NCBI RefSeq assembly: GCF_021129155.1
Contig: NZ_JAJOMC010000003.1
Location: 62,001-126,000, forward strand
DNA: 64,000 nucleotides
Direction: 5' to 3'
Source of the DNA: Arthrobacter sp. AK04
GTDB taxonomy: Bacteria > Actinomycetota > Actinomycetes > Actinomycetales > Micrococcaceae
The notes under the pieces are model-generated. The model saw nothing but the letters and a program-made list of their open reading frames with translations, was not told the DNA's origin and made no database searches. Below, piece after piece: positions 10,219 through 21,634 of this stretch (position 1 is its first letter; the number at the start of each line of letters is the position of its first letter). The translations under genes were made by a program, and so were the position numbers.

Positions 10219-10526
10219 ATGACTGAAAATATCGACGCCCCCACATCCTTGAGGTCACCGCTGACAAAGCACCTCAGATCTGTGAAGACCTCAACGGCGC
10301 CGTGGACCGCGCCGTCCACCACGCCATGAAGGTCGGTCGGCACGGGGTTCTGGTAACCCAGCACACCAACACCTTCTACACCGTCACGCTCAGCAAGGAC
10401 GTCCCCTACGGACAAATCTACGAACGGCGGCTGACCGAGCCCCTGACGCAGCCCTTAACTAAGTCTCCTGGCTGTGACTGCCAAACGCCTCCCAGACAAG
10501 GCGTCCGCTCAGATGTCATGGGATGA
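10219..10526 (+). pseudogene. small conserved hypothetical gene with a 1-nt frameshift
   Basis: Translation from ATG 10219 gives MTENIDAP and then leaves frame. Adding one C to the CCCCC tract at about 10239-10243 restores a continuous frame reading on through ILEVTADKAPQICEDLNGAV and further to VPYGQIYERR. The downstream frame stays open to a TGA at 10526. I do not recognise the family. Either the gene was recently inactivated or the base was lost in sequencing. It stands at the left border of the mobile block and overlaps the start of the next gene. Confidence 0.55.
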
Positions 10527-10776: not shown

Positions 10777-12804
10777 TCAAAAACGGATGCGCTTATCCCA
10801 ACCTTGACGCCCCCGGGTGTTCTTTCTTTCTCCTGCCTCCACCCGTTCTTCTGGCGGACATTTTGTACAGCCTCCCGCCCTCCGCCGGTTCACCACGCTA
10901 CGGTCTTGAGAGTGGCCGTATTTGCAAGTCCACGTCCAACGTCCGGTACCAGGCACCACAGTTTCTGGACCGAATCCATTTCCTTCATAGTCCCAATCTT
11001 TGACGAGGTCAGGCTCCTTGGTGGCAAGGTCGTTCACACCGGGAAGCAGCAGCCTTCCCGTCGTGACGGGACAAGTAGCTTTCTTCTGTCCACACCTGTA
11101 GGCCGGGGTCTCATCAAAGGAATGTCCTTCAGGACACATCCACCATACTTTTGTCTCCGATCCGGGCTTTACTTGATCGGGAGTGAGGGGGCCGTTTTTA
11201 GTCGGATGCCACCAGACGGCCACATCCGGGCGAGCACTAGCGAGATCGTTTGTACCCGGGATCAGAATCTTTCCGTGGCACGTCTGGCACCGTCCTCCGG
11301 CTTCGACAAGCTTGGCTGGAGTTCGGCTAAACGAATGTCCATTCGGGCACCGGAGGTGAATTATGGTGTCAGCATTGCCTGCAGAAACTGCTCTCGGTGT
11401 AAGTTCGCCATTGGCTGGGTAGTCCCACATGGCCGCCAACTCGGGGTGAGTCGTCGCTAAATCATTGAATCCGGCCAAGACAGCTTTGGATGCGCAGAAG
11501 CGGCAGCCGGTGCCTTGGATGGTTCGATTTGTCACATAGGCGTCGTAATGGTGACCGAGTTTGTCTTTCCATGCCACTTTGCCGTTGTAACCGGGTCCGA
11601 TGATGTACGGGGTCAAGTCTCCGTTGGCTTCCTGGTCCCATTCGAGGGCAAGGTGAGGCATCACGTCGCCGAGGGAGTTGTATCCCGGAATGATCCGTTG
11701 GCCTGTGCAGATGGAGCAATGAAATTCTTCATCGGTTGAGCGGCGTGCCCTCGCCCTGCGTCTGCTTTGCACATGCCCGTATGTGCACATAAGCAGTTTT
11801 TCTGCCGTCGGATCGGCAAGTGGTACGGCGAAGCGGTCAGTCCACCACCGGTCGTCACTTCGATTGGTGGTTCTCAGGCAGTCCAGGTATCGCCGCATAG
11901 GCTCCAACGGATAGGTGGCCGTCTTAGCCTCAATCCTCGTTGCAAGAAGCGGATCGAAGCTTCCGGTTCTCTTGTCTCCGAGCTGAGTAGTTCGATACCA
12001 AACGAAGGTTGGACGTAACAAAAGCCATGCCTGGTCAATGACTGCCCAGCTGACTCGGGGAGCTTTGTCAGCAATGACCTGTGCGAGTATCTGGTATCCC
12101 TGTCGGAAGGTGATCCCAGTATCTAGCAACTGTTGGTGGAGGCCGTCGTGAGTCAGGGCTTCTACCAGCGTCGCCGCCAAGGGAACGTCACCTGGTGCTG
12201 GTGCACCGCGGTAGTGGCGTCGCCTCGCGGACGCGATGCGGGAGAAGACCTCGTTGGTGAGACGCCAGTTGGCCCGGCCGGAAGCGATGAGTCCTTCGAG
12301 CCGGACAGCTGCGCCTAGCACTTCATCATGGACACGTTGGGAATGGTAGGCGGCCGGCAAAGCGGGGCGGCCAGGCCGCTGTCTTTTGACTGCGACGCTG
12401 GGCCCTATCCAGCACCGATGCACCCGGCAAACAAGTGGTCGATCCTCAGGTTCGAGTTCCACAACGTTTCCCGCACTGCATTTCTGGCAGGCATGCCATG
12501 CAACGGGAGCCGGCACACCGCGACCGCGCGGGCGGCGCACTTGTCTGGCGCGCTTCACGGTGAGCTCTTGGGGGCCAAGCGTGGCCATTCGCTGGCAGAG
12601 ACGGTGGAGTTCTTGGGCGGTCTCTTCAAACGTGGCTTTGCCTGCATTCGTACGCCGGACCCCGGCGGCGGCCACACCCCAAAAGTACTGCGGCTCCATT
12701 CCAAGGCGGTTTCCTGTTCTTGCTGCGTAGCTAATGAGGGTCTCCCCCGTGAAGTATCGGGGTGCCACTCCTGGTGCTAAGGGCCCTCTGGTTATGGTCA
12801 ACAT
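10777..12804 (-). CDS. tniQ: TniQ/TnsD-type target-selection protein with tandem zinc-ribbon repeats
   Basis: 675 residues. The N-terminal TniQ part (about 10-200) has a zinc finger with C106xxC109 and C126xxH129. In Tn7-like elements TniQ/TnsD binds the target site and recruits the TnsC ATPase. The C-terminal half has four tandem repeats of about 70 residues (roughly 371-440, 441-511, 512-583, 584-652). Their pattern is PGxNDLAT, then WDYxxNGxLTP, then CPxGHSF, then CxxC, with a half repeat before them (C340..GH..C363xxC366). They resemble the probable-zinc-ribbon DUF4379 family. Repeat 1 lacks the first Cys and repeat 3 has only one Cys in its second pair. The gene abuts tnsC, 1 bp after its stop. 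The repeats may replace the usual TnsD DNA-binding region. Confidence 0.85.
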   Translation of the reverse strand: MLTITRGPLAPGVAPRYFTGETLISYAARTGNRLGMEPQYFWGVAAAGVRRTNAGKATFEETAQELHRLCQRMATLGPQELTVKRARQVRRPRGRGVPAPVAWHACQKCSAGNVVELEPEDRPLVCRVHRCWIGPSVAVKRQRPGRPALPAAYHSQRVHDEVLGAAVRLEGLIASGRANWRLTNEVFSRIASARRRHYRGAPAPGDVPLAATLVEALTHDGLHQQLLDTGITFRQGYQILAQVIADKAPRVSWAVIDQAWLLLRPTFVWYRTTQLGDKRTGSFDPLLATRIEAKTATYPLEPMRRYLDCLRTTNRSDDRWWTDRFAVPLADPTAEKLLMCTYGHVQSRRRARARRSTDEEFHCSICTGQRIIPGYNSLGDVMPHLALEWDQEANGDLTPYIIGPGYNGKVAWKDKLGHHYDAYVTNRTIQGTGCRFCASKAVLAGFNDLATTHPELAAMWDYPANGELTPRAVSAGNADTIIHLRCPNGHSFSRTPAKLVEAGGRCQTCHGKILIPGTNDLASARPDVAVWWHPTKNGPLTPDQVKPGSETKVWWMCPEGHSFDETPAYRCGQKKATCPVTTGRLLLPGVNDLATKEPDLVKDWDYEGNGFGPETVVPGTGRWTWTCKYGHSQDRSVVNRRRAGGCTKCPPEERVEAGERKNTRGRQGWDKRIRF

Positions 12805-13908
12805 TCAGGCCCGACTTTTTGGTTTTGTGGACCTTCGTGTTGGCATGTTGTCTGCCTTCTCCGTGGTGCGGCCCAGCTCCGCCCTCATGTGGCCTTCGGT
12901 TGCCAAGTTCACTCGGGCCGCCTGCAGGCGCTCGAGTGTGATGGTCTCACAGTGGGGATCATTCAGGAGGATCAGCTCCCGTGCTGCTTGGGTCAGCATG
13001 AGGTTGAGCGCCTGGACGCTTCCTCCAGTCATACCGTGCAAAGGTCCAGCCAAGGCTTTCAATGTTTCGGGCCTCGTAGCGTAAAGCGGCAGGGCGTCTG
13101 CCATCGTAGCGACAAGTCCTGCCCACCTGGACATCCAATCCACGGATTCCTTGGTGTACTCGGCCACGTCCGCTCGTATGAACCGGTTTTCGATTTGCAT
13201 ACCCCTCGTGCCACGCGTGAGGTTCGTGACTTCCAGGTTGATACCCGCCAAAAGAAACGTGGCTGTCGTGTCGTCGGCCAGCCGTCGGATGGCGTCAGCG
13301 GCGCGCCTGGAAAAGGACCCACCGTTATCCAGGTTCTGAACTTCGTCAATGGCGAAGACCTCGATCCCGGATCTGGCGATGCCGGCGAGCACTAGGGTCC
13401 GCATGATCGGGTCACTGTCGCGTGGTTTGTAGGCCACCCCCAGGTAGTCGGCGATTTCCATATAAATGCTTTTGGGGGTCCCGCTGTCCGGAACGCAGAT
13501 GTAGGCCACGGGACAGCTGCGGACGTCATAGATGGAATCCGGATTCACGTCGCGGTAGGCAGCGAGAACCTCACCTAGTACGAAGTGAACGGCGGTCGTC
13601 TTCCCGCGGCCGGAGGGGGCCGAGACGAAGACGCCGTAACCGCCCTTGGGCTTTCCGTGGTTTAGGTGCATAACGGTGGCGAGCGTCTTGCTGATGTTGA
13701 CCACTGTTTCGTTTTCAACCGTCACTTTGTCCGACAGGAAGTCCAACCGGTCGAGGTCGTATGCTGTCCTTTCCGATTGGGTCATGCTCAGCAGTTCCGG
13801 GACGGGGACGAGGCGGAAGTTCTCCCCACGCTGAAGCAGAAACTCGAGATAGCCGGACCAGTGGGTGATGTCCAGCCCTTGGTTGCCGCGAAAATCAAAC
13901 CTTTCCAT
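12805..13908 (-). CDS. tnsC: TnsC/TniB-type AAA+ ATPase of transposon
   Basis: 367-residue regulator that links target recognition to the transposase by ATP-dependent filament formation. Walker A is APSGRGKTT (residues 97-105), Walker B is EVFAIDEVQ (183-191), and a sensor-1 segment TFLLAGIN follows (217-224). Its start overlaps the end of the transposase gene by 14 bp, and its stop touches the TniQ start, so expression is coupled. Length is close to TniB/TnsC proteins. The Lys/Arg-rich C-terminus could serve DNA or transposase contacts. Confidence 0.88.
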   Translation of the reverse strand: MERFDFRGNQGLDITHWSGYLEFLLQRGENFRLVPVPELLSMTQSERTAYDLDRLDFLSDKVTVENETVVNISKTLATVMHLNHGKPKGGYGVFVSAPSGRGKTTAVHFVLGEVLAAYRDVNPDSIYDVRSCPVAYICVPDSGTPKSIYMEIADYLGVAYKPRDSDPIMRTLVLAGIARSGIEVFAIDEVQNLDNGGSFSRRAADAIRRLADDTTATFLLAGINLEVTNLTRGTRGMQIENRFIRADVAEYTKESVDWMSRWAGLVATMADALPLYATRPETLKALAGPLHGMTGGSVQALNLMLTQAARELILLNDPHCETITLERLQAARVNLATEGHMRAELGRTTEKADNMPTRRSTKPKSRA

Positions 13909-15952
13909 TGTCGTCGCTTTCCGGTGAGGGGCGATCCAAGCCGTGTGCTGTCATGGGATAGTCTGGGACGTTGTCCCAGTCGTCGCCGGCAGGTGACCCT
14001 TCGGACAGGGTTGTGCGGGTTGCGGGGCCGCCCATGCCCTGTATTTCCGCCAAGTGTTCCGCCAACTCCGCTGCCTTTTTTTGCTTTTCTGCACGCCTGA
14101 TCTTGGCGACTTCCCTCTTGATGAAGGAAGCTGATGCCTCGTCGGCCTCCGCGCTTGGGATGACATAACCGTTGTCGAGAAATTCGTGGGCAATGCGCCA
14201 AACCCCTGACAAGTGTGGATTATCGAACCGGCCCTCTTTCATGTGGCACTGGATGTATCGGTCTTCGTGCGGAACGTAAACCCATATCGTGCGGGGATCC
14301 GTGGGCCGGTAGTGGATTTCCCATTCACCGCCGTCCTTCCCAAGCTTCGAGTCCCCCGACGTGTGCATCCTCAAAAGACGGAGCTCGTCGGAGTCGTACT
14401 GGCGGCAATGGAATTCGATGCCGTCTCGTTGCAGGGTGCGGTGGTCGACCGGCATGAGGGAGATATAGTCGGCCTCGGCCAAAGCGAGCGGTACATATCC
14501 AACGAAGGGGAACATGCTGGCGTACATAACGTTGGGGCTGACCGGTTTCGCGGACGGTGCGAGGGGGTCACGGAGGGCGTCAAGTGGCTGATTCTGCCAG
14601 TACTGTACGATCCACCTGTCGAGCAGGATGATCAGGTCTTCGATGTCCAGCAACTCCTCGTTGTCCGGGTCTTTGCCACGCCGGTTGACGTCACCGCCCG
14701 TGTTACCGGGCAGGTACGCGATGAACTGGTCTAGGAGTGTGTCGAAGAACCGCTCGATCATTGCCTTGTCGGTCGGTGATCGCGTTGAGCAGCGGGTAAT
14801 GACAATGCCGAGTTGCCGGCAGGCGGAATCGAAGACTTTGCTCGTGAAATCCCTACCGTTGTCGGTGACGATACGAAAGATGCGTATGACCGGTCTGCGG
14901 GTTTCCCACTTGGCTACTTCCTCAGGGTCCAGTAGCGACGCCCACGGAAGGTGCCTGCCCTTCAGCACCCAGGGGTTGAACAGTTCGTCGCTGCCTGGCC
15001 GTGCTTCGGCTGGTGACAGGGCCTGGGCAAGAAGATAAGCGTGCGCCGCGCCTTTCCCGGATTCCTGGACGCTCAGGGCCAGGACCGTGTGCGTGCATTT
15101 ATCCATCATGACGGTGAGGGTGAATGAGCCGGGTGTCCCGTCCGGCTTGCGGGCGCGAACATCGTACCTCGAATTGTCAATCTGCGTTTCACTGCCGGGC
15201 ATGATTGCGGACATCCCGTGGTAGGTCCAGTCAGGTGCGTTACGCGCCGTCCTGCGGCGTTTTGCGGGGCCTTTAGGTTCCTCACCCTTCGTTTTTTCTT
15301 TGATGGCGGCGATCAGCCTGTCACGCCCGGGGATTAGGAAATCCCGGTCAGGGAATTGTTCCTTGACCATGAGGATGACGTTCGTTGCCTGGACTTTCCA
15401 GGGGATGCTCGCCTTGTACAGCCGGTCCGCGATCATGGCATCGATGCAACCGAGCACTGCAGAGTGGACGCCGTCGAGCGGATGGTGCTTTCGGGTGGTC
15501 CGCATGTCGAGGAGGCCGGCCGGGCCCGAGTCCTTGTACGCTGCCACGTACCGCTCGAGAGTACGTTTTCCTACACTGATGCCTGCATCGTTGAGTTGCC
15601 TCACCATAAGGTCAACCCGCTGACCCTGGGTGGTCAGCTCCGGGTTATAACCAGGCCGGTAATCCTCGGCCGACTCTGGTTTTCCCTCGATTATTTCCTC
15701 GACCCGGGGGATCCATTCCTCCAGCCTTTCCCGTTCGGATTTGCTGGCTATCTCGAGCTTTCCAGTCTCCGAAATACGTCGATCAAATATGGGAGGAACA
15801 TCCAGTTCGCGGCAAACCTCGGAGTACGACATGTTGTGCACGTCATCGGTCTTAACGTCCCTCATGGAAAAGATGTTGTTATGGAATTCGACAATTTCCC
15901 ACCGCGTCCCAGCAATGGTGATGACGCTACGCGGCCCGATGGCACGTTGCAT
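13895..15952 (-). CDS. tnsB: TnsB/TniA-type DDE transposase
   Basis: 685-residue Mu/TnsB-class integrase that binds element ends and joins them to target DNA. The RNase-H-fold catalytic triad is visible: D in ETQIDNSRYD (about residue 259), D in RIVTDNGRDF (about 364) and E in KAMIERFF (about 400), a D(35)E spacing. An N-terminal HTH region is followed by a Mu-type beta barrel after the core. I prefer ATG 15952 (GGAAGG 6 bp upstream) over the TTG at 15982. The gene overlaps the TnsA-like gene end by 26 bp and the TnsC gene by 14 bp. All catalytic residues are intact, so it may be active. Confidence 0.88.
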   Translation of the reverse strand: MQRAIGPRSVITIAGTRWEIVEFHNNIFSMRDVKTDDVHNMSYSEVCRELDVPPIFDRRISETGKLEIASKSERERLEEWIPRVEEIIEGKPESAEDYRPGYNPELTTQGQRVDLMVRQLNDAGISVGKRTLERYVAAYKDSGPAGLLDMRTTRKHHPLDGVHSAVLGCIDAMIADRLYKASIPWKVQATNVILMVKEQFPDRDFLIPGRDRLIAAIKEKTKGEEPKGPAKRRRTARNAPDWTYHGMSAIMPGSETQIDNSRYDVRARKPDGTPGSFTLTVMMDKCTHTVLALSVQESGKGAAHAYLLAQALSPAEARPGSDELFNPWVLKGRHLPWASLLDPEEVAKWETRRPVIRIFRIVTDNGRDFTSKVFDSACRQLGIVITRCSTRSPTDKAMIERFFDTLLDQFIAYLPGNTGGDVNRRGKDPDNEELLDIEDLIILLDRWIVQYWQNQPLDALRDPLAPSAKPVSPNVMYASMFPFVGYVPLALAEADYISLMPVDHRTLQRDGIEFHCRQYDSDELRLLRMHTSGDSKLGKDGGEWEIHYRPTDPRTIWVYVPHEDRYIQCHMKEGRFDNPHLSGVWRIAHEFLDNGYVIPSAEADEASASFIKREVAKIRRAEKQKKAAELAEHLAEIQGMGGPATRTTLSEGSPAGDDWDNVPDYPMTAHGLDRPSPESDDNGKV

Positions 15953-16733
15953 GGTTGCCTTCCGTCCAAATAGTTGTGTCAAGACTTAGGGGTGCAGAGT
16001 GGTCGTAGCTCAAGGCCTGGCGAAACATCATGTGGTAGATGGCGGGCATGGCAAACGCCGGCCGCTTAGCGTCCAAGCGCCTGGCGGTCTCCGCCAGGGT
16101 GTGCGGGGTCCACAAATATTCGAGAAGGAACTTTTCACTGATCTGAGTGGGGTGCATGTCCTCGGCCCGGAAACAAGCAAGCCATTCAAGGTTGGTCCAG
16201 TGCCACCCAGCGATTGCGTGGAGGACAGTGTGCCGCCAACCCTGCCGCTCACACTCATCACTTGTCTTCGCGAATGCGTGCCCAGTGTCAGTGTCTACGG
16301 CGTCAATCGGCTTGACGTCATAAACGGTCCTGCGACCGTCAGCCCCGAGAGCGAAAAAATCCGGATAATGCCGCGTATTGTCCCTGAACGACAAACAGAA
16401 AGGTTGAGAAGTGATGAAAAGCAGTTCCTCTGTGTGCTCCAGCAAAACAAGACATTTCAACTCCTCCAGCGACTCGTACCAAACGAAATCCCCACTGGAG
16501 ATAAACGGGTAGAACCCTTCATAGCTGCGCCGGTGCGGGTAGTTATATCCCCTCCGACTCAGCGCGAAGCTCGAAGGATCAAAGTCGCGGATTTTCCGAT
16601 CGAGCACAACGCCACGACCGCGCTTCGAATTCTCCCGCCACAGCAGAACGTTATGTCCGGTCTTATTGTTGAACTCTCTAAACGGATCGCTCTGATTACG
16701 GCCCAAAAGGACACGAAACTCACCCGCGAGCAT
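15927..16733 (-). CDS. tnsA: TnsA-like transposon endonuclease
   Basis: 268 residues. The restriction-endonuclease-fold core shows ESLEELKCLVLLEH (about 87-100, catalytic Glu), HYPDFFA (D125) and VYDVKP (K141), the E-D-K set of TnsA nucleases that cut the 5' ends and allow cut-and-paste transposition. The C-terminal third (HPTQISEKFLLEYL onward) resembles the winged-helix TnsC-contacting part. It is the first gene of the operon. Its promoter should lie in 16734-16900, where a 7-bp inverted repeat and GTTGA repeats are seen. The presence of TnsA argues for Tn7-type rather than Tn5053-type replicative movement. Confidence 0.82.
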   Translation of the reverse strand: MLAGEFRVLLGRNQSDPFREFNNKTGHNVLLWRENSKRGRGVVLDRKIRDFDPSSFALSRRGYNYPHRRSYEGFYPFISSGDFVWYESLEELKCLVLLEHTEELLFITSQPFCLSFRDNTRHYPDFFALGADGRRTVYDVKPIDAVDTDTGHAFAKTSDECERQGWRHTVLHAIAGWHWTNLEWLACFRAEDMHPTQISEKFLLEYLWTPHTLAETARRLDAKRPAFAMPAIYHMMFRQALSYDHSAPLSLDTTIWTEGNHATCHRAA

Positions 16734-17136: not shown

Positions 17137-18015
17137 ATGGAGATCATTCGGGAGTCGGCCCATCGGATGCTTGCCTACGTCGAGGCTGTCCGTCGGCAAG
17201 GGTACGCGTTGAGCGTCGCTGAGTTCAACGCCTATGCCGAGCAGTGGGATCAGAAGGTCACGAATGTGGGGACACCCAGCGAATTAGCGAGGACTCTCTC
17301 TGAGATGGCGTCCGGAATCACATCTTTCTACGGCAGCGGACGCACGCAGGTGGAGTCTATGCTCAATTATCTAGTTCGCGTGCGCTGGCTCACCAGGTTG
17401 GACAACCGGGTCGACATCACGCCGCTGGGCAAGGCGGTGCTCCGCGAAGCAAATGCACCCTTGCCGGACTCTGACGTGAGCTCCACAGTAGAAGTGATTA
17501 TCGACCCCAACAATCCCTTTGCCTACGCTCAACTGATGGGTCGTATAGGCGGCTTTGACCGATGCATGATCGTTGACCCTTATCTGGACCAGGATCAGCT
17601 GCTGACGCTTGCGACATTCCCTACGGTAACTCGAATTTTAACCAGCAATAGGAACGCGAAAAGCCGAAAGCCCGTGTTTGCTATCGTTCTCGGCTCAGCT
17701 CCGCACTTGGAAGTAAGGATGGCGGCTGAGAAGGAGCTACACGACCGGATTGTCATTCCTGCAGAAGGCGGAGCACTCATGCTCGGGTCAAGCCTCAACT
17801 CCATCACACGCCGCTTCGGCGTCGCGACGACGCTGGAAGAATCATCCTCTCGACTTATCCGTGCTCATTACGACAGCCTTTGGGACCAAGCCAGCACAGT
17901 GGAACGGGAGCATGGCCGTCCCGAGAGCGGCCTAACGAGCGTGGTGTCACCTGGCATGTCAAACGCCGACAGCGAGAGTGCTCCAATCACGGCCGCCAGT
18001 GCCGATGGCAAGTAG
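17137..18015 (+). CDS. hypothetical protein with PLD-like C-terminal domain
   Basis: 292 residues. The first half is alpha-helical with a winged-helix-like segment (VRVRWLTRLDNRVDITPLGK, about 88-107). The second half reads MIVDPYLDQDQLL (about 147-159) and then LHDRIVIPAEGGALMLGSSL (about 202-221). That order, DPYLD then HDR..GSSL, matches the PLD-like fold seen in accessory and defence genes, although the classical HxKx4D is changed to HDR. The tail (about 255-292) looks disordered. It stands alone to the right of the Tn7-like operon and may be cargo or resident island DNA. A nuclease or effector role is only a guess. Confidence 0.6.
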   Translation: MEIIRESAHRMLAYVEAVRRQGYALSVAEFNAYAEQWDQKVTNVGTPSELARTLSEMASGITSFYGSGRTQVESMLNYLVRVRWLTRLDNRVDITPLGKAVLREANAPLPDSDVSSTVEVIIDPNNPFAYAQLMGRIGGFDRCMIVDPYLDQDQLLTLATFPTVTRILTSNRNAKSRKPVFAIVLGSAPHLEVRMAAEKELHDRIVIPAEGGALMLGSSLNSITRRFGVATTLEESSSRLIRAHYDSLWDQASTVEREHGRPESGLTSVVSPGMSNADSESAPITAASADGK

Positions 18016-19481: not shown

Positions 19482-20255
19482 ATGTCCAATAGTTCCCCGA
19501 TAGCCGTCTTTGGTGATTGGCACGGGGATGCTGGGTGGGCCCTAACGGCCATCAGATCAGCAGCACGCGAAGGCGTCCGCACGGCCATACACGTCGGGGA
19601 CTTCGGGCTTGACTGGCCAGGCGCCAAACGGGGCCGCTACGAGACAAAGCTCAACAAGTACCTCACCGAGCTAGGTACCACGCTCATCATCTCCGGCGGT
19701 AACCATGACAATTGGGACACTTTGGGAAAGCTCATCGTCGAAAAAGACGGCCTGGCTAACGTTCTATCGAATATCCGGGTATTGCCGCGGGGTGGCAGAA
19801 CCATGATCGAGGGGCTTGCCGTCGGCGGCTTGGGCGGGGCGTTCAGCGTCGACTACGAATACCGGACCGAGGGAAAGGACTGGTGGCGAAATGAAGAACC
19901 CACTCGCCGGGAAGCCGAAGCCCTCATCGCCGGCGGCCCCTTGGACATCCTGGTAACCCACGATGCCCCTGAAGGCGTTCCGCTAATTGGTGACTTTCAA
20001 CTCACCACAGAACTAACTCTGAAGGCCAACAAAACCCGGGACCTTCCGAGAGAGGTAGTCGATGTGCTGGCCGTGCCGCACCTGTTCTGCGGTCACTGGC
20101 ATCAGCGGCGCATCCACGAACTACGCCAACCGAGTGGCATGGTCACGAGAGTTGATGTGCTCGATATGGAAAACTCCCGTCACGGGAACGGTGTCCTCGT
20201 ATGGCCCGGCAAAGCTCCGCTCCGGATTGACCCGCTTGAGATCAGGAACCCATAG
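19482..20255 (+). CDS. calcineurin-like metallophosphoesterase
   Basis: 257 residues with the full metal-binding motif series: GDWHGD (about 11-16), GDFGLDW (about 40-46), GGNHDN (about 75-80), VTHDAPEG (about 158-165) and CGHWHQ (about 203-208). It would be a two-metal cytoplasmic phosphodiesterase or phosphatase; the substrate cannot be told. There is no Shine-Dalgarno sequence, and a -10-like box 6 bp upstream suggests a leaderless start. It precedes two overlapping small unknown genes and may form a unit with them. Confidence 0.72.
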   Translation: MSNSSPIAVFGDWHGDAGWALTAIRSAAREGVRTAIHVGDFGLDWPGAKRGRYETKLNKYLTELGTTLIISGGNHDNWDTLGKLIVEKDGLANVLSNIRVLPRGGRTMIEGLAVGGLGGAFSVDYEYRTEGKDWWRNEEPTRREAEALIAGGPLDILVTHDAPEGVPLIGDFQLTTELTLKANKTRDLPREVVDVLAVPHLFCGHWHQRRIHELRQPSGMVTRVDVLDMENSRHGNGVLVWPGKAPLRIDPLEIRNP

Positions 20256-20295
20256 CTAGCTGCTACCTGGTGGTGACGGACCTAGAGTAGGAAGC

Positions 20296-20706
20296 ATGGA
20301 CGCGGCCGAGTGGGCGCACGAGCTGGCCTACTCCCTTAGCGTTGGGCCAGGAACACCGTCCTTACTGACGATCGCTACTTGTTCCGGACCCGCTGCAAGT
20401 AGGCAGGTTATTGAAATGGCCAAACGAGTACTCGTCGAAGCGGGATGGCCCGTCTATGAGCTGTTCGCTCGCGAGGTGGCCCCTGACCCGTCCCTTTTGC
20501 GTGAGAGCGGCTTCCTGATTCTTCGGGACGTTCGCCAACCATTAGCCCCGGCTGTGCCAGTTCTCATTGGCGCTCACCAACTGAATATCAGACGGGGCCT
20601 CCCTGTCGGTCTCCTCATCGTAGGGTCTCCTGCCGGAATCAGAGCCCTGCGTAGACATCCCGGCCTGGGCTTTCTAAGCCGCGCGGAGTGGGTCGTGCAG
20701 AACTAG
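20296..20706 (+). CDS. hypothetical protein
   Basis: 136 residues starting MDAAEWAHELAYSL. The second half (PAVPVLIGAHQL, then GLLIVGSPAGIRALRRHPGLGFLSRAEW) resembles the sensor region of P-loop ATPases, but no Walker A or B motif is seen. It may be a truncated ATPase or a different fold. It starts 40 bp after the metallophosphoesterase and ends 1 bp before the next start. Confidence 0.5.
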   Translation: MDAAEWAHELAYSLSVGPGTPSLLTIATCSGPAASRQVIEMAKRVLVEAGWPVYELFAREVAPDPSLLRESGFLILRDVRQPLAPAVPVLIGAHQLNIRRGLPVGLLIVGSPAGIRALRRHPGLGFLSRAEWVVQN

Positions 20707-20707
20707 T

Positions 20708-21148
20708 GTGAACTCGCCTCCGGTACTCCGCCCCTTGGTCCTCGGCATTACGGAACGTCGGGCATCAAGCAAACCGTTTCGCACCGCCGCGCTCGGGAGC
20801 TTTGTCATAGGCCGCAGCTACAATCCCACTATGGTGCAGGAGCTGCGCAATGACGACTCGGGCCGTTACCTCGTGACCACTGCTACGGGTAGCCACTACG
20901 TGCTGGACTTAACAGCCAGGACCGTGAAACGAGCAAAGGCAGCCACCGCTCCGCTCAGGGAGTATATGGACGTTGGGTTTTCACAGCTGCGTCGTGACGG
21001 GGAAGGACTTGAGCTGCTCATGCTTGAGTTGTGTGCAGTTGGAGTACCCGCCCGCTACTGGATCCAAGTCCGGGACGATCACATCGTTACGCTCAGAACA
21101 ACCTCGCCCGTGGTACGGATCGTTGCTCTGAACCCTTCGGAAGAATAG
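20708..21148 (+). CDS. hypothetical protein
   Basis: 146 residues from GTG 20708, one base after the preceding stop, which suggests translational coupling. An internal ATG at 20830 could be an alternative start giving about 106 residues; the later part (GRYLVTTATGSHYVLDLTA, then RYWIQVRDDHIVTLRTTSPV) looks like a small beta-rich domain. Family not recognised. Confidence 0.5.
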   Translation: MNSPPVLRPLVLGITERRASSKPFRTAALGSFVIGRSYNPTMVQELRNDDSGRYLVTTATGSHYVLDLTARTVKRAKAATAPLREYMDVGFSQLRRDGEGLELLMLELCAVGVPARYWIQVRDDHIVTLRTTSPVVRIVALNPSEE

Positions 21149-21634
21149 ATCTGAGGCCCTCCCGCCACGCAAGAGTTCTAGATTCCGATCTTCACCCAAG
21201 CATGGAGTTACCCCAATGAGCTGACCAAGTCGCTGGAGGATGGCGCCAGCTGCAGGCTACAACGGAACCTTTACAGGCTAATCCAGCGTTGCGCATTCGT
21301 GGCGCCAGCGCTATGAATACGCAATGCCGCCACCTTCCGCTGCCTGTCTCTTCGCCCCTTAGGACGGTTCCGTCACTGCGGCAGGCCGTGGCCTTCCTGC
21401 TTCCCGGCGCCGCCTCCCCAATCTCCGGCTCGAAAGGGTCGGTCCTCGCCGGGGATGAACGCTGCGGCCATGAGCAGGCCGAACAGGGGGGGGTAAACGT
21501 CTCCTGTAATCTCGACGGCATCTCAGCAGAGGGCCGAGCGTCAAATTAGCGAGAACCTGATCCGGCGACGGGTGAGGACTTCAGTAGATAGAGAACGGAC
21601 GACTAGACTGGGCCGCCGTCGCCGGGACGCGCGA
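21149..21634. other. non-coding stretch with gene debris
   Basis: 486 bp without an intact gene. On the minus strand around 21371-21500 a frame reads VYPPLFGLLMAAAFIPGEDR and continues to a stop, like the tail of a lost membrane-protein gene. It is interrupted near a run of eight G at 21486-21493. This may mark the right border of the accessory block. Confidence 0.35.

Follow-up and report, generated by a model that had tools for sequence, protein, structure and literature searches.

A Tn7-like element inserted behind nrdF in Arthrobacter sp. AK04 encodes a TniQ protein with a DUF4379 zinc-unit array

A 64,000-nt stretch of the genome of Arthrobacter sp. AK04 (assembly GCF_021129155.1, contig NZ_JAJOMC010000003.1, positions 62,001 to 126,000, forward strand; the window) was found to contain a Tn7-like transposition operon, tnsA-tnsB-tnsC-tniQ, and to be part of a large mobile element inserted behind nrdF, the gene for the beta subunit of ribonucleotide reductase. 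The genome is labelled G000, the contig of the window C53 and the contig of the same genome that holds nrdF C68. All four genes lie on the minus strand and encode an endonuclease subunit (tnsA, positions 15927 to 16733, 268 amino acids [aa]), a DDE transposase (tnsB, 13895 to 15982, 695 aa from a TTG codon, with a start at codon 11 being possible), an AAA+ regulator (tnsC, 12805 to 13908, 367 aa) and a putative target selector with a CCCH motif in its N-terminal half and a DUF4379 array in its C-terminal half (tniQ, 10777 to 12804, 675 aa). The tnsA and tnsB genes overlap, as do tnsB and tnsC, while tnsC and tniQ abut, and no further gene of the operon is present downstream of tniQ. A first-pass annotation, made from the sequence alone, had described these open reading frames (ORFs) as intact and coupled, and this proved to be correct. 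Its description of the system as complete holds for the operon but not for the element, both ends of which are outside the window.

Profile searches were combined with alignments of seven relatives to examine the core proteins. TnsA matched NF033179 TnsA_like_Actin with 124 bits (cut-off, 110), and TnsC matched PF05621 TniB with 49.1 bits (cut-off, 22.4). TnsB resembled TnsB and TnsAB chains of the PDB by sequence and scored 30.5 bits with PF09299 Mu-transpos_C (cut-off, 21.7) and 23.9 bits with PF00665 rve, which is under the cut-off of 32.6. In phmmer searches of the PDB, there was no match to TnsA and there were weak matches only to TnsC. The D-D-E residues of TnsB (D269, D374 and E410) were invariant across the relatives, as had been expected from the first reading. 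Of the E/D/K residues that had been proposed for TnsA, the acidic ones (E87/E91, D125 and D139) were likewise invariant but the lysine was not, K141 being replaced by R in genome G190.

The C-terminal half of TniQ matched PF14311 DUF4379 with 131.1 bits and an E value of 1.6e-38 (cut-off, 24.5) in four Pfam stretches, in agreement with the repeats recognized in the first pass. The treble-clef array occupies residues from about 337 to 651 (positions 10851 to 11796, minus strand). Four is not the full count of its units, as the alignment revealed a half unit (C340, GH344, C363 and C366) ahead of the four full units, each about 70 residues long, and one cysteine appeared to be lost in each of two motifs of the window's array. 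Most of the array's Cys and His residues were invariant across the relatives, and so was the CCCH motif of the N-terminal half (C106, C109, C126 and H129). The score with PF06527 TniQ was 18.1 bits, below the cut-off of 27, and the TniQ model of PADLOC matched with an E value of 0.0035. At an E value of 0.1, DUF4379 was detected in all seven relatives and PF06527 in only three. A PF06527 search of the own genome at an E value of 0.001 returned nothing and was uninformative, as 14 of 14 control genomes were also without a match. An AlphaFold2 model of TniQ had predicted local distance difference test (pLDDT) values mostly of 75 to 95 from residue 361 onwards and low values across most of the N-terminal half; no TniQ chain was among the listed fold matches, with the N-terminal half entering as a model of low pLDDT.

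The boundaries of the element were located from nrdF. The stop codon of nrdF on C68 is followed at a distance of 7 nt by a TGTGAG-type end with repeats, and the right end of the element is at C68:28562. The motif predicted from this end (GAAAC and then TGTGAG) occurs at C53:58014 and is followed by matching repeats, which places the left end at C53:58019, 3,982 bp before base 1 of the window. The 5-bp duplication GAAAC is common to both ends, which are of the TGT..ACA form with repeated sites. DNA to the left of the C53 end was 90.5, 87.6 and 83.6% identical, over 1.3 to 1.4 kb, to DNA behind nrdF in the element-free loci L098, L096 and L120, respectively, with the match starting about 100 bp from the end of the element. 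As the two ends share their duplication and nrdF sites without the element match the left flank, the whole window (positions 1 to 64000, unstranded) lies inside a Tn7-like element, which consists of C53:58019-131153 and C68:1-28562 and is at least 101,697 bp in length (73,135 plus 28,562 bp); the contig ends are of low complexity. This location of the window had not been recognized in the first pass, which treated only the operon. An element limited to 10.8-21.6 kb, as derived from two-sided synteny, was rejected; the nrdF-type end motif was not detected there and the ends were found outside the window.

Other TniQ-DUF4379 proteins were sought in 101 genomes of the genus and, at an E value of 1e-40, in 396 genomes of the order. 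Eight carriers were detected within the family, namely, seven of the genus genomes (G000, G300, G374, G297, G324, G352 and G316, the gene being frameshifted in the last) and G190, which belongs to a different genus. The nrdF gene was present in 61 of 61 genus genomes searched. For comparison with the carriers, 43 non-carrier nrdF loci were assembled from 30 genus loci (the best 30 of the 61 genomes by nrdF score, with loci beyond these being used only if they were carriers) and 13 control genomes. An end was scored behind nrdF when a TGT-type start no more than 60 nt after the stop codon was followed, in the next 120 nt, by at least three copies of an 8-mer with one mismatch allowed, a rule that discards ends with fewer than three repeats. 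Such ends were detected in 8 of 8 carriers and in 2 of the 43 non-carrier loci (G298 and G164); the hypergeometric value of 7e-8 for this association presumes independent loci, which relatives are not. Most of the non-carrier loci were element-free.

Behind nrdF in the carriers, TGTGAG-type ends with repeats at regular intervals were present close to the stop codon, at a distance of 5 to 12 nt except in G352, where it was 43 nt. The outer ends were of five types, which tracked the TnsB lineage, and exact 5-bp duplications were present in five elements (GAAAC, AAGGG, GTAGT, ACCAG and ACCTG). In G374, for example, the left end was located 40.4 kb from the nrdF end, with GTAGT at both. The reading frame of nrdF was left open in all eight carriers. 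In the six genomes with the operon and nrdF on one contig, the two were about 2 to 49 kb apart, with the 3' end of nrdF towards the TnsA side. A contrast set of 13 related operons, none of which has a match to the array half, was also examined (L047 has no ORF of 200 residues at the place of tniQ, and L040 and L046 are at contig ends). Seven of these array-less operons share a contig with nrdF and none is within 50 kb of it, the nearest being 51 kb away in the opposite orientation; for the other six, nrdF is on a different contig. Insertion at random sites, which had been named beforehand as the outcome that would speak against a site-reading role, was not observed.

One or more right ends of other lineages were observed behind the outer right end, about 80 to 180 bp further in, in G374, G300, G297, G324 and G316 (L089, L127, L126, L125 and L202, respectively), and the same stacking was present in a degenerate form in G352 (L087). 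Because the outer ends in G374, G300, G324 and G316 have matching duplications, these foreign ends are inside the mobile unit. They may be left over from previous insertions or may represent borrowed target immunity. In G300, part of a second TnsB also remains, at L031:5408-5944.

Outside the family, the search of the order detected tnsABC with two TniQ-DUF4379 genes in G442 and a remnant, counted as such and not as a whole element, in G455; three more genomes matched in the array half only. The G455 remnant corresponds to TniQ residues from about 283 to 661 behind an unrelated N-terminal part and is contained in an ORF (22452-24299 of L210) in which it continues in frame behind a methyltransferase-like portion, a label read from the sequence. 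In both genomes the gene before the element encodes LPG_synthase_TM, the two being 79% identical to each other, and end-like repeats of different sequence were found 1 and 3 nt after its stop codon. G442 has only a 25% nrdF-like match, at a distance of 137 kb, and nrdF of G455 is on another contig. A left end and a duplication were looked for in the G442 element and were not found. The G455 array was 54% identical to the second array of G442, and either was 36 to 41% identical to the arrays from nrdF elements; for the first array of G442, which is shorter, the identity to these was 31 to 38%. Repeat number did not distinguish the targets, as the main array of the LPG_synthase_TM site has the same units as the aligned nrdF arrays. 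The proposal of the first-pass annotation that the repeat half assumes the site-reading role of TnsD was thus supported by association, with nrdF in the eight carriers and, outside their family, with a different gene.

Comparison of the lineages indicated that the array was the best-conserved part in 17 of 17 between-lineage pairs, with identities of 39 to 59% as against 22 to 33% for the N-terminal half of TniQ, 24 to 34% for TnsC, 31 to 40% for TnsB and 26 to 38% for TnsA. This pattern supports, without proving, a view of the array as the part that is held to one target. It is only partial evidence because the array was also the better-conserved half when the targets differed (36 to 41% versus 22 to 27%). 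In a FastTree phylogeny of the arrays, six nrdF arrays grouped together (support, 0.997), as did the pair from the LPG_synthase_TM site (1.0), and the G316 array was placed without support (0.074). The repeat unit was also detected in 36 loci of viral contigs and in 67 plasmid records, of which the 20 listed were mostly zinc-ribbon proteins or unannotated; none of the 67 plasmid matches held 80% of the TniQ query, all being to the array half only. G344 encodes a DUF4379 protein in which no TniQ half was detected.

A three-gene module encoding a metallophosphoesterase and proteins of 136 and 146 aa is present at positions 19482 to 21148 (plus strand) as accessory or cargo genes. The module was detected by tblastn in G374, G297, G324 and G352, with two copies in the one element of G324, and its third gene alone was found in G300; it was absent from the stretches examined of G190 and G316. 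The 136-aa protein was 87 to 90% identical between elements whose TnsABC proteins were about 35% identical (G297, G324 and G352), and on these sequence comparisons the module seems to move between elements. As it adjoins tnsA in several elements, the module was considered as an attachment site; this was rejected, as the elements contain the module internally and the G190 and G316 stretches lack it.

The reading that we regard as probable is that of a Tn7-like element which inserts by cut and paste behind nrdF, with the TniQ-DUF4379 protein as a TnsD-type selector whose array binds the 3' end of this gene. The array would bind the end of the nrdF coding sequence, so that TnsC and the transposase would come to lie a few bases beyond it, the N-terminal half of TniQ with its CCCH zinc motif would link to TnsC, as in TnsD, and TnsA and TnsB would insert the element just behind the stop codon with a 5-bp target duplication. 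We infer the contact of the array with nrdF DNA and the resulting specificity, the TniQ-TnsC link and present activity, with the array-based reading being the best-supported inference. Several observations weigh against it. In addition to the low PF06527 score and the greater conservation of the array even where targets differ, the element of the own genome is spread over two contigs with a gap. No left end or duplication was found for G190, G297 and G352 in the stretches examined. Tn7-type ends are present behind nrdF in the non-carriers G298 and G164, and possible degenerate ends were seen by eye in L094, L102, L108, L116 and L147. Within one TnsB lineage (G374 versus the window and G300), TnsABC identities of 61 to 70% exceeded those of the array (54 to 56%). 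The G352 array grouped with phage-type DUF4379 (0.989) and yet is located at nrdF, at +43, and is perhaps a separate capture. Finally, the nearest solved DUF4379 folds are those of trypanosome mitoribosome-associated proteins (mt-SAF33, 6sga; E value of 1.1e-7 by sequence, VIA Z of up to 10.5), an affiliation that would suit nucleic acid binding without showing it.

In a different division of labor, the N-terminal half of TniQ with its CCCH motif would read the site and the array would be a general nucleic acid- or protein-binding extension that only stabilizes the complex. The invariance of the CCCH motif and the mitoribosomal nature of the nearest solved DUF4379 proteins are consistent with this arrangement, and TnsD has its DNA-binding determinants distributed along its entire length, the CCCH motif included (PMC2918618). 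We consider it unlikely, as lineages that share nrdF retain as little as 22 to 33% identity in the N-terminal half while the array keeps 39 to 59%, and shorter array-less TniQ proteins were not found beside nrdF. It is also quite unlikely that TniQ is only a hub and that nrdF is recognized by a different protein of the element or by an RNA that it encodes, in the manner of TnsF or of the effectors of clustered regularly interspaced short palindromic repeats (CRISPR) elsewhere. TniQ hubs with partners are known (PMC10293859) and the three-gene module recurs in several nrdF elements, but this module is missing from the G190 and G316 stretches, no gene follows tniQ in the operon and no CRISPR-like array was detected by a simple script in the 101.7 kb of the element (73,135 plus 28,562 bp; the contig gap was unseen and CRISPR-associated genes were not searched systematically).

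The association with nrdF would say little about target reading if the elements were old residents behind this gene that have been passed on by descent or swapped through recombination between flanking sequences. Recombination beside nrdF is likely, because cargo modules are shared by several elements and foreign right ends are stacked there. As an account of the association, long residence is nevertheless highly improbable, given five duplications, five end types, varying distances to the stop codon and the frequency of element-free nrdF loci. An extension of the array-based reading, which we put forward as speculative and doubtful, is that the units constitute a modular, exchangeable reader in which each contacts a few base pairs of the gene end, so that array swaps could re-aim loads of at least 100 kb between gene ends (nrdF and LPG_synthase_TM), with the foreign right ends serving as borrowed immunity against rival elements directed to this site. 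If true, this would amount to a protein-guided, re-targetable transposition system.

In Tn7, the TnsA side faces the target gene. The element described here resembles Tn7 with TnsD at glmS (attTn7) in having TnsA, TnsB, TnsC and a CCCH selector, in its insertion just behind a conserved gene, in the 5-bp duplication that accompanies this insertion and in having the TnsA side towards that gene. Unlike in Tn7, the gene is nrdF, the insertion is 5 to 12 nt (43 nt in G352) rather than about 20 nt after the stop codon, the C-terminal half of the selector consists of DUF4379 and PF06527 is below its cut-off. According to PMC2918618, the sequence bound by TnsD is the last 36 bp of glmS, insertion about 20 bp behind it produces a 5-bp duplication, and TnsD requires its CCCH motif; the pattern of this motif is C124, C127, C152 and H155, as compared to C106, C109, C126 and H129 here. 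Faure et al. 2023 (PMC10293859) describe selectors as modular, with a conserved core and a variable C-terminus, which is also the construction of this selector; the TnsD C-termini described there are helix-turn-helix folds and the main text contains no DUF or treble clef, whereas the C-terminus here is DUF4379. Zinc fingers are present in another target selector of a Tn7-like element, TnsF of Tn6022 at comM (same source), but TnsF, which has a broken tyrosine recombinase fold, is encoded apart from TniQ, and the zinc units here form part of TniQ itself. Free-standing and phage DUF4379 proteins have the same repeat unit, although their matches cover the array half only, and the trypanosome mitoribosome proteins share the domain by sequence and fold but are eukaryotic, ribosome associated and without a link to transposition.

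According to Benler et al. 2021 (PMC8649781), no member of the Actinobacteria-dominated clade had been characterized by experiment. Among the papers searched, with supplements and most subscription papers being outside the scope, none was found that named either a TniQ-DUF4379 fusion or an insertion site of Tn7-like elements at nrdF, nothing was found that joined a treble clef with Tn7 and nothing was found on mt-SAF33. The target gene is thus one not found in these papers, and the putative selector combines TniQ with a zinc-unit array of a type that was otherwise detected here in free-standing and phage proteins. Between them, the two families supply naturally occurring arrays for two different targets, so that the manner in which TniQ C-termini read DNA becomes testable. 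The 64 kb of the window, with its ordinary-looking metabolic genes (ATP-binding cassette sugar transport, a sugar kinase, an aldolase and acyl-coenzyme A and aldehyde dehydrogenases), lies inside one mobile element.

Three further features of the window were observed. To the left of tniQ, 143 bp at positions 10287-10430 were 69 to 76% identical to sites in 16 of the 101 genus genomes and look like a gene fragment. About 42 bp at positions 21370-21411 recurred with 84 to 95% identity in many genus genomes and also elsewhere in the own genome, on C71, as would be expected of a dispersed repeat or a terminator. A protein encoded at positions 17137-18015 had a partial, below-cut-off match to the VPA1262 N-terminal domain (NCBIfam) and weak PADLOC candidate matches and is possibly defence cargo.

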